The notes beneath the pieces are model-generated. The model saw only the letters and a program-made list of their open reading frames with translations, was not told the DNA's origin and made no database searches. A program made the position numbers and the translations under genes. A DNA stretch of 64,000 nucleotides from Geitlerinema sp. PCC 7407 (GTDB lineage: Bacteria > Cyanobacteriota > Cyanobacteriia > PCC-7407): the NCBI RefSeq assembly GCF_000317045.1, contig NC_019703.1:2902501-2966500 (forward strand). The letters run 5' to 3'. Below are positions 37,490 to 41,568 of the stretch, one piece after another (within the stretch, counting starts at the first letter, position 1; each line of letters opens with the position of its first letter).

Positions 37490-38548
37490 ATGACCATCGC
37501 AGTCGGACGCGCACAGGCCCAGCGAGGATGGTTTGACGTTCTCGACGACTGGCTGAAGCGCGATCGGTTTGTGTTCATTGGGTGGTCTGGTTTGCTGCTG
37601 TTCCCCTGCGCCTACTTGGCGGTTGGGGGATGGCTGACGGGGACCACCTTCGTAAGCTCGTGGTACACCCACGGGTTGGCATCGTCCTACCTGGAAGGAT
37701 GCAACTTTTTGACCGTGGCGGTGTCGACACCGCCCAACAGCCTGGGACACTCCCTGCTGTTTTTGTGGGGACCTGAGGCCCAAGGGGACTTTGTCCGCTG
37801 GTGCCAACTGGGAGGTCTGTGGACCTTTGTCGCCCTGCACGGAGCTTTCGGGTTGATCGGGTTCATGCTGCGTCAGTTTGAGATTTCTCGACTGGTGGGC
37901 ATTCGTCCGTACAACGCGATCGCCTTCAGCGCGCCGATTGCAGTGTTTGTGTCGGTGTTTCTGATGTACCCGCTGGGTCAGTCTGGCTGGTTTTTTGCAC
38001 CGAGCTTTGGTGTAGCGGCGATTTTCCGCTTTCTGCTGTTCTTCCAAGGTTTCCACAACTGGACGTTGAACCCCTTCCACATGATGGGAGTGGCTGGCGT
38101 TCTGGGGGGTGCACTGCTGTGCGCGATCCACGGAGCGACGGTGGAGAACACGCTGTTTGAGGACGGCGAGAACGCGAACACCTTCCGGGCGTTCAACCCG
38201 ACGCAGGCAGAAGAGACGTACTCGATGGTGACGGCGAACCGTTTCTGGTCGCAGATCTTCGGGATTGCGTTTTCGAACAAGCGCTGGCTGCACTTCTTCA
38301 TGCTGTTCGTGCCTGTGACGGGCCTGTGGATGAGCTCGGTGGGTATCATTGGTTTGGGTCTGAACCTGCGGGCATACGACTTTGTTTCGCAGGAGATTCG
38401 GGCAGCGGAGGACCCTGAGTTCGAGACGTTCTACACGAAGAACATCTTGCTGAACGAGGGTATCCGGGCCTGGTTGGCGCCGCAGGACCAGCCGCACGAA
38501 GGATTTGCTTTCCCTGAGGAAGTACTGCCTCGCGGTAACGCTCTCTAA
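37490..38548 (+). CDS. psbD: Photosystem II D2 protein, stand-alone copy
   Basis: D2 forms the photosystem II reaction-centre core with D1 in the thylakoid membrane. The 352 residues match the family and start with [27 protein letters not shown] at ATG 37490, after GGAG at good spacing. The five membrane helices, the chlorophyll and iron ligand His residues ([37 protein letters not shown]) and the C-terminal [10 protein letters not shown] are intact. In the usual psbDC operon, psbC begins inside the end of psbD. Here no psbC follows and a terminator lies 35 bases downstream, so this is most likely the second, often stress-induced, copy (psbD2). Confidence 0.97.
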
Positions 38549-38611: not shown

Positions 38612-38641
38612 GATTTAAGAGCACTACAAACTGAAAACCTG

Positions 38642-38650
38642 TGTTACACT
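38642..38650 (+). promoter_or_regulatory. Extended -10 promoter of the structured RNA
   Basis: TG-T-TACACT is a good extended -10 element. No -35 match is needed for this class and none is seen. It lies after the psbD terminator, so the RNA has its own promoter, with a start near 38657. Confidence 0.5.
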
Positions 38651-38705
38651 GGCTGACAGTTGAGCTCTTCAAATCAACCATTTAGGGATTAAGGAGGTGA
38701 TGCCC

Positions 38706-38777
38706 ATGATTGATAGTAGTAAATGCATGGGTCATCACGTTGACAATAGCCGGCTGAGCGCCGGGGCTGTTCTCTAG
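38706..38777 (+). CDS. Possible 23-residue micro-ORF in the structured RNA
   Basis: ATG 38706 lies eight bases after the GGAGG of a perfect Shine-Dalgarno sequence. The peptide begins MIDSSKCMGHHVDN and ends SAGAVL. An in-frame ATG at 38700 is too close to the ribosome site. The ribosome site is partly sequestered by hairpin 1, whose loop includes the first codons, so translation might be switched. There is no family evidence. Confidence 0.35.
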   Translation: MIDSSKCMGHHVDNSRLSAGAVL

Positions 38778-38879
38778 AAAGAAAGCTCTTGTTTAAGCCA
38801 GCCAAGTGCTGACTTAGGCTAAGCGAACTGGACGGGGTTCCTCCCGGCAGTCAGGTGTCAACGATGATGATCCGCTACA

Positions 38880-38949
38880 CCGCTCCCATCTTTACAAACC
38901 TTGTGCTTTTTTGTACAGCGTTTGTCCCAGGTGGGAGCGGATAGTTTTT
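38880..38949 (+). terminator. Long multi-tier terminator of the structured RNA
   Basis: CCGCTCCCATCT pairs with AGGTGGGAGCGG (12 bp, one G-U), then ACAAAC with GTTTGT, then TTGTGC with GTACAG (two G-U pairs), closed by a six-T loop. TTTTT follows at 38945-38949. Confidence 0.8.
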
Positions 38950-39077
38950 AAAGGCAGTTGGCCCTCGCTAGAGGATTACAAGCATTCATCACCTTGAAGC
39001 TTGTTTCAGACTACTCAAGTGGATTTATAGAATCTCCTAGGATAGAAGAATGTTGTCCTTGGAGAATTTTTTGTTTT

Positions 39078-39783: not shown

Positions 39784-41568
39784 ATGTCGAAAATTTTGTG
39801 GAAGTCACTGCTAGTAAGCCCTGCAGTTCTGGGAGCTGCTCTGGTTGCTTCTGCGGGCGCGATCGCTGCTGAAAGCGCTCCCGCGACAAGCCAAGTTAGC
39901 GAACTGGCTGCTGTCGAGTCTCTGCAATCTGTTGAAGCTGTAGCATCCCAGTCTGCCGCTCCTGAGGCACCTGTTGCTGAAGCAGCCCCTTCTTTTGCTG
40001 AGCCGACGACCCTGGCCCAAGCCGCTGATGCTGGGTCCCTCAGCCAAATCAATACTTACAGCCTGGAAGGCCGCGCAGACGATGCCGGTCAGGTAACCTC
40101 TGTATCTCAGCTCTCCGACGTTCAGCCGACCGACTGGGCCTTCCAAGCGCTTCAGTCCCTCGTTGAGCGCTACGGCTGTATCGCTGGTTATCCCGACGGC
40201 ACCTACCGCGGCAACCGGGCCATGACCCGCTACGAGTTCGCCGCTGGTCTCAACGCCTGCTTGGACCGCGTGAACGAGCTGATCGCCGCTGGCACCGCTG
40301 ACCTGGCCACCCGCGAAGACCTCGCCACCCTGCAGCGCCTGCAAGAAGAGTTCGCTGCTGAGCTCGCCACCCTGCGCGGCCGCGTGGACTCCCTCGAAGC
40401 TCGCACCGCTGAGCTCGAAGCCAACCAGTTCTCCACCACCACCAAGCTGAACGGTGAAGCAATCTTTGCTTTGACCGATTCTTTTGGCGACAACGACGAT
40501 AACGAAATCGTCTTTGGTAACCGGGTTCGCTTAGCTCTGGAATCTAGCTTCACGGGCCGTGACAAGTTGGTTACCCGTCTGGCTGCTGGTAACCTGTCTC
40601 CTCTGCCGGTCGCTTTTGGTACTCCTGAGTCGACCCAAACCTTCAACCTCTCTGATAGCGACAACGACATTGTCCTCGATTGGTTGTCCTATACCTTCCC
40701 CTTCGGCAACTCCCGCGTTTACGTAGCGGCAACGGGTGGTATTCACAGCGACTACGCTCCTACGCTGAATCCCTACTTTGAAGACTACGACGGCGGTAAC
40801 GGCGCGCTCTCGACTTTTGCGTCTGAGAGCCCCATCTACCGGATCGGTGGCGGCGCCGGTGCTGCTGTGAGCTTTGGCTTCAGCCCGCTAGAGAGCATCC
40901 TTGGTCCTAGCACCGTCACGCTTGGCTACTTGGCTGGCGGTCTGTCGACCAGCGATCCCGCTTCTCCTGAGGAGAAGAACGGCCTATTCAACGGCGACTA
41001 TGCAGCTCTTGCTCAAGCTAACTTCAACGTTAGCGATCGCTTCGGTCTGGGCCTGACCTACGTTCACGGTTACCACACCAGCGGCAGCGCTATCTTTGAC
41101 CTGGGTAGCGGTAATGGTGTTGTTGGTAGCACCCTGGCTAACTTCCCCAGCCTGGGCACTTCTCCCACTGTGACCAACTCCTACGGCGTTGAAGCAGCCT
41201 TCCGTCTGAGCGATCGCGTTTCCGTTAGCGGCTACGGTGCTTACACCGATGCCAAGCTGGTGGAAGCTGGTGACGCTGAAATCTGGACCTATGGCTTGGG
41301 TGTTGCTTTCCCTGACCTGGGCAAAGAGGGCAACCTCCTGGGTATCTTCGCTGGTGCTCAGCCCTACGCAGGTCTGATCGAAGTTCCCGGCTCTGACTAC
41401 CGCAACCAAGAAGTGCCTTTCCACGTGGAAGCCTTCTACAAGTACCAGTTGAACGACAACATCTCCATCACTCCCGGTGTCATCTGGCTGACCAGCCCCA
41501 ACGAAGACATCTTCGGATCTGACAGCGATGCTGTGATTGGTACCCTTCGTACCACCTTCAAGTTCTAA
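39784..41568 (+). CDS. SLH-domain porin (iron-uptake/OprB-like outer-membrane porin)
   Basis: 594 residues from ATG 39784, where a signal peptide begins (MSKILWKSLLVSPAVLGAALVASAGAIAA). After a low-complexity Ala/Glu/Val stretch comes one SLH domain (QLSDVQPTDWAFQALQSLVERYGCIAGYPDGTYRGNRAMTRYEFAAGL). A coiled coil follows (LATREDLATLQRLQEEFAAELATLRGRVDSLEARTAELE), then an OprB-type 16-strand barrel ending in the outer-membrane signature Phe (TLRTTFKF). The SLH domain binds peptidoglycan-linked glycan and the barrel allows solute or iron entry. Codon use suggests high expression. The frame is open 11 codons further upstream. Confidence 0.92.
   Translation: MSKILWKSLLVSPAVLGAALVASAGAIAAESAPATSQVSELAAVESLQSVEAVASQSAAPEAPVAEAAPSFAEPTTLAQAADAGSLSQINTYSLEGRADDAGQVTSVSQLSDVQPTDWAFQALQSLVERYGCIAGYPDGTYRGNRAMTRYEFAAGLNACLDRVNELIAAGTADLATREDLATLQRLQEEFAAELATLRGRVDSLEARTAELEANQFSTTTKLNGEAIFALTDSFGDNDDNEIVFGNRVRLALESSFTGRDKLVTRLAAGNLSPLPVAFGTPESTQTFNLSDSDNDIVLDWLSYTFPFGNSRVYVAATGGIHSDYAPTLNPYFEDYDGGNGALSTFASESPIYRIGGGAGAAVSFGFSPLESILGPSTVTLGYLAGGLSTSDPASPEEKNGLFNGDYAALAQANFNVSDRFGLGLTYVHGYHTSGSAIFDLGSGNGVVGSTLANFPSLGTSPTVTNSYGVEAAFRLSDRVSVSGYGAYTDAKLVEAGDAEIWTYGLGVAFPDLGKEGNLLGIFAGAQPYAGLIEVPGSDYRNQEVPFHVEAFYKYQLNDNISITPGVIWLTSPNEDIFGSDSDAVIGTLRTTFKF

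Follow-up and report, generated by a model that had tools for sequence, protein, structure and literature searches.

A cyanobacterial small RNA, taken as a Sye_sRNA1 homologue, whose conserved micro-ORF forms one arm of its main helix

Results and discussion

A separate transcription unit downstream of psbD

The 64,000-nucleotide stretch of the Geitlerinema sp. PCC 7407 genome analyzed here (the window) contains psbD at 37490-38548 and, downstream of it, a compact RNA element whose parts are listed in Table 1. An earlier note on this DNA had described an extended -10 element, a Shine-Dalgarno (SD) sequence, an ATG at 38706, a 23-codon open reading frame (ORF) and a terminator running into TTTTT, and all of these are present (the GC-rich terminator stem occupies 38874-38945, immediately before the five T residues). 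Its reading of the RNA as a transcription unit of its own is borne out by the homologues described below: the terminator is conserved, and an extended -10 motif (TGnTAnnnT) lies 5' of approximately 70% of those having enough upstream sequence. Folding of the window RNA, compared with that of shuffled sequences, gave z = -5.2. The SD site is the single occurrence of AAGGAGGTGATNNNNATG in the 4.68-Mb genome; its complementarity to the anti-SD is judged against the cyanobacterial 16S sequence in general, since a pattern search did not locate a 16S 3' end in this genome, where rRNA is possibly masked. The ACCGYTTAGG block ahead of the SD is kept nearly always, also in homologues that have no apical helix.

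Table 1. Features of the RNA element in the window
Feature	Position	Strand	Basis or remark
Extended -10 promoter element TGT-TACACT	38642..38650	+	Sequence
RNA, putative Sye_sRNA1 homologue	38657..38950	+	5' end deduced from the -10 element; 3' end is the T run
5' UTR element AACCATTTAGGGA (consensus ACCGYTTAGGnnA), directly 5' of the SD	38676..38688	+	Near-universal in homologues
Shine-Dalgarno AAGGAGGTGAT	38691..38701	+	GGAGG retained by nearly all homologues
Hairpin 1, alternative fold of the nascent 5' part (predicted)	38698..38737	+	Arms 38698-38708 and 38726-38737; hides the AUG
Micro-ORF MIDSSKCMGHHVDNSRLSAGAVL, 23 codons, ATG 38706, stop TAG at 38777	38706..38777	+	Open in homologues
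Main long-range helix, 5' arm (helices 1-4), equal to ORF codons 8-24	38729..38775	+	Covariation
Variable apical loop or extension	38778..38833	+	Length and sequence vary; nearly gone in L029 and L021
Main helix, 3' arm, including the conserved pyrimidine block TTCCTCCCGGCAGTC (38838-38852)	38834..38873	+	Covariation; near-invariant columns
Intrinsic terminator, stem CTA.ACCGCTC...GAGCGG.TAG plus T run	38874..38950	+	Compensatory change, 8/15 pairs

Distribution and family assignment

BLASTN across cyanobacteria found homologues with the same layout throughout the class (in 41 of 59 genomes spread over it). Covariance models A1 and R1, built from 24 of these homologues, matched 279 of the 390 genomes of the class and 133 of 157 genera, almost always in single copy; the window genome has one copy, scoring 212.5 bits with model R1. 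Across a sample of the phylum, the sole match outside the class was marginal (29.9 bits, at G442:C14:104398-104500) and is probably due to chance. To the model search, the RNA is missing or unrecognizable in genus g17 and, save for one weak match, in the small-genome family f2. That weak match (L225, 36.5 bits), from a small-genome cyanobacterium, has an SD and a 17-codon ORF and may be a picocyanobacterial homologue that has diverged. Two loci of family f23 (L224 and L226) have the RNA in reduced form, with in-frame insertions of about 9 and 33 nt within the ORF. An exact pattern search returned no cyanophage or other viral copies. The earlier view that known RNA families do not fit was upheld by Rfam 15, in which the window RNA matched nothing at the gathering score and, at a relaxed threshold, only a meaningless entry (E = 6.5); three distant homologues likewise had no match there.

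The description of the RNA as unassigned must, however, be revised, because it appears by locus, size and a 24-codon extension of cobB to match a published family, Sye_sRNA1. The open-access text of Tan et al. (2018; PMC6091082) describes Sye_sRNA1 as a small RNA (sRNA) of approximately 200 nt with 53 homologues and a conserved structure, the most abundant sRNA of Synechococcus elongatus UTEX 2973 in control conditions and transiently down in high light; in several cyanobacteria its members rank with the most abundant transcripts, and no function has been assigned to them. The same text reports confirmed homologue transcripts in Nostoc 7120, S. elongatus 7942, Synechocystis 6714 (TU2045) and Synechocystis 6803 (TU475), places the homologues downstream of psbD or cobB, and notes that in Synechocystis 6803 the cobB gene sll1501 is lengthened by 24 codons by running into the RNA (PMC6091082).

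Our homologues reproduce this arrangement. In the genus taken as Synechocystis the RNA lies downstream of cobB; at two of its loci (L177 and L194) the cobB stop stands 61 nt before the ATG of the homologue, and the next in-frame stop comes exactly 24 codons on. The region covered by the model measures 221-222 nt in S. elongatus-like and Synechocystis loci. Because the 24-codon cobB extension is reproduced exactly, we take the window RNA to be a member of the Sye_sRNA1 family, an assignment made by synteny, size and the cobB detail. The window RNA shares with Sye_sRNA1 the locus, the size class, the promoter-terminator unit and phylum-wide conservation, and it is probably very abundant. PmgR1/Ncr0700 of Synechocystis is likewise an abundant, widely conserved and light-responsive cyanobacterial sRNA; it was rejected as an identity by locus, being TU1715 beside ssr2227 (PMC5386190), whereas the Synechocystis homologue of the window RNA is downstream of cobB, that is, TU475.

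The conserved structure is a long-range helix

When the 5' part of the window RNA is folded alone, two local hairpins are predicted, and the earlier note had taken them for two strong structural elements of the RNA. Compensatory change does not bear this out: hairpin 1 and local hairpin 2 have zero covariation support in the homologue alignments, and both were rejected as conserved structure. The conserved structure is instead a long-range helix joining the ORF and a 3' block, the second half of the ORF pairing with sequence about 100 nt downstream (38834-38873 in the full window RNA). From a MAFFT alignment that had not been fitted to any structure, RNAalifold returned a consensus in which ORF codons 8-24 pair with the TTCCTCCCGGCAGTC...GACCC block in one long helix, plus the terminator. 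Two-sided (compensatory) changes were found in 23 of the 45 pairs of helix and terminator, a level reached in 0 of 500 shuffles, and sliding the pairing as a control lowered the paired fraction from 97% to 33-52%. A model-fitted alignment of 80 sequences gave two-sided changes in 37 of 48 pairs, a figure to be read in the knowledge that such an alignment is biased toward the model. The loop joining the two helix arms differs widely among homologues, being nearly absent in some and over 150 nt long in others.

For 75 homologues, energy calculations predict that the two folds exchange as the RNA is completed. Hairpin 1 has a mean pairing probability of 0.79 when the 5' part is folded by itself and of 0.06 in the full RNA, in which helix 1 is paired at 0.87, and the accessibility of the AUG rises from 0.16 to 0.54; the SD in the predicted full fold is only partly free (mean 0.35). 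The window's own RNA is predicted to open at the SD (from 0.08 in the 5' part to 0.78 in the full fold), its AUG remaining mostly paired in the full fold (only 0.10 free). The earlier claim that the 3' half of the SD lies inside hairpin 1 is possible, but it does not apply to the predicted full-length fold. Because hairpin 1 shows no covariation, the argument for a switch is one from these energy calculations.

A micro-ORF selected for frame, start and stop

The 23-codon ORF and its notable SD, both singled out by the earlier note, are conserved. A start codon (ATG, rarely GTG) follows the SD in each of the 203 distinct homologues, and the frame then stays open for 16-28 codons in all of them and for exactly 23 codons in 168, which end in TAA (97), TAG (70) or TGA (1). 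Length changes before codon 17 are mostly multiples of three: wherever the anchor was found, codon 17 almost always lies 48, 51 or 54 nt from the start, with true exceptions at L201, L221 and L222 (some of the non-48 distances proved on inspection by eye to be false anchor matches). Column permutation gave P = 0.003 for stop avoidance and P = 0.05 for amino-acid similarity. The ORF is clearly under strong selection on its frame, start and stop, and the amino-acid sequence is constrained weakly and partly through the helix.

These observations bear on the reading under which the RNA is purely non-coding, with the SD and AUG acting as a 30S docking site or seed and the ORF arising as a by-product of conserved RNA sequence. 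It was as an sRNA that the family was published (PMC6091082, open-access text), its RNA structure is strong, and the codons AGT AGT AAA (AGTAGTAAA) are kept down to the wobble base, as expected of a signal at the RNA level. The earlier note had suggested looking for synonymous bias, and among close pairs such an excess does appear in codons 9-23 (0.48 versus 0.34, P = 0.01). Codons 2-8 have no such excess and show no constraint at the amino-acid level; codons 9-23 lie inside the helix, and structure could contribute to the excess there. A by-product would not, however, be expected to keep 203 of 203 frames open, with indels mostly of 3n and stops avoided, or to place a stop codon, not always the same one, close to the apex of the helix in almost every homologue. 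We consider the non-coding reading unlikely, although it is by a small margin the likeliest of the alternatives; the sequence comparisons indicate that the RNA is probably translated and not simply non-coding.

If the RNA served chiefly as the message for a functional micropeptide, its helix and terminator would do no more than stabilize an abundant transcript. The ORFs do yield a recognizable peptide consensus (M-x-[DE]-S-S-K-x-M-G-x-Q-V-x-x-S-R-L-C-A-G-A-V-L), with which the synonymous excess of codons 9-23 is in keeping, and in distant lineages the N-terminus remains rich in Ser, encoded there by different Ser codons and with insertions that keep the frame; searches of NCBIfam and Pfam assigned the peptide to no known family. 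Against this reading, codons 2, 7, 10, 13 and 14 vary freely, and C-terminal residues are dispensed with in several lineages. Several, including the S. elongatus-like one (17 codons), have an ORF of just 16-17 codons, and in the short ORFs of families f12, f26 and others the stop sits in a helix bulge, with pairing continuing beyond it; in two genomes of family f33 (L221 and L222) a 1-nt shift rewrites the C-terminus, and the ORF still ends after 23-24 codons. Because C-terminal residues are lost in f12, f26 and f33 while the pairing stays, constraint on the peptide is weaker than that on the RNA, and a role chiefly as a micropeptide message seems to us rather improbable.

Neighboring genes and cis-regulation

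The genes around the RNA differ among lineages. Upstream, psbD is found in 96 of 188 loci and cobB in 12 of 132. Downstream, a pterin dehydratase gene is found in 100 of 184 loci and an OprB-type porin gene, on the same strand, in 112 of 133, their starts lying at a median of about 0.4 kb and about 1 kb, respectively, from the start of the RNA. In the window, the OprB-type porin gene occupies 39784-41568; its linkage to the RNA is more constant across cyanobacteria than that of psbD.

Leader-peptide attenuators of the trp and tna type combine a short ORF, mutually exclusive hairpins and a terminator. The window RNA is like them in all three respects; unlike them, it is free-standing and has no dependent downstream gene. 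The earlier note had offered attenuation of the pterin dehydratase gene as an alternative, and the frequency of both downstream genes, together with the attenuator-like ORF and terminator, could be taken to favor a leader of the dehydratase or the porin gene. The downstream gene is not constant, however, the dehydratase being found there in only 100 of the 184 loci and the next gene at L177 lying on the opposite strand, and the distances to the next gene are those given above. A cis-leader role, that for the dehydratase included, is unlikely because the RNA has its own promoter and its own conserved terminator; Northern and dRNA-seq analyses in the open-access text of PMC6091082 further show a free RNA of about 200 nt. 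Taken together, we regard the leader reading as highly improbable. Porin mRNA start regions were also considered as antisense targets and rejected, the RNA showing no signal of complementarity to them (the neighboring porin only was covered). That the RNA derives from the 3' UTR of an upstream psbD or cobB mRNA, as the frequency of these two neighbors might suggest, is scarcely credible given the extended -10 motif of most homologues, the change of upstream gene among lineages and the transcription start site mapped in S. elongatus (PMC6091082, open-access text).

A proposed model: folding that depends on translation

The reading that we prefer, with a probability of roughly 0.5, is that of a translated, bifunctional small RNA of the Sye_sRNA1 family, free-standing, in which ORF and main helix are mutually exclusive. 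A strong SD and an AUG would start a 23-codon ORF whose stop codon comes near the helix apex and, because codons 8-24 are the 5' arm of the helix, translation by a ribosome is incompatible with a closed helix. From these features we infer translation, a switch and any target.

We propose that the way the RNA folds is governed by whether it is itself being translated. While the RNA is still nascent, hairpin 1 would hide the AUG; the completed 3' arm would then capture GGGUC, dissolve hairpin 1 and free the AUG. Entering ribosomes would open the helix up to its apex, so that the pyrimidine-rich 3' arm (UUCCUCCCGG) would become accessible and could base-pair with an SD, either that of the same RNA or that of another mRNA. 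In this way the RNA would report on translation or on the availability of ribosomes, with downstream effects exerted by the RNA, by the micropeptide or by both. The translational switch or regulated micropeptide suggested by the earlier note remains the best class of explanation, but with the long-range helix, not hairpins 1 and 2, as its conserved structure. A more specific version, in which the RNA is a translation sensor that ribosome passage, more than the peptide, switches so as to expose an anti-SD-like strand, is a doubtful one at present; if true, a transcript that, rRNA aside, ranks with the most abundant in cyanobacteria would carry a 23-codon ORF that is itself one strand of a regulatory helix.

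Dual-function sRNAs such as SgrS/SgrT, RNAIII/delta-haemolysin and SR1 are small structured RNAs with an SD and a short ORF, and the window RNA is like them in this. It differs in that its ORF itself is one arm of the main helix, so that reading excludes folding. The selection on the ORF that is expected of a dual-function sRNA is found here in the frame, the start and the stop, the amino-acid signal being weak.

The transcript, its conservation, and its abundance and light response in homologues were already known (PMC6091082, open-access text); as far as open-access text shows, three things are new, namely the occurrence of the micro-ORF across the phylum, a covariation model in which the ORF is part of the main helix, and the coupling hypothesis that results. 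Sye_sRNA1 was published as an sRNA only, whereas the family of the window RNA carries a micro-ORF; our literature search for the ORF, or for later work on the RNA, returned PMC6091082 alone, whose main text mentions no ORF. The main published work used a species in which the ORF is probably truncated, which may be why it escaped notice. An abundant sRNA with neither an assigned function nor an Rfam entry is thereby turned into a set of testable questions, namely whether it is translated, whether it is the peptide that counts or translation itself, and whether translation switches the fold.

The promoter region of the window RNA (38640-38650) and the upstream sequence of one homologue (L036) contain a GTTACA-like sequence that resembles an RpaB HLR1 half-site; such a putative half-site in the promoter would agree with the decrease reported in high light.
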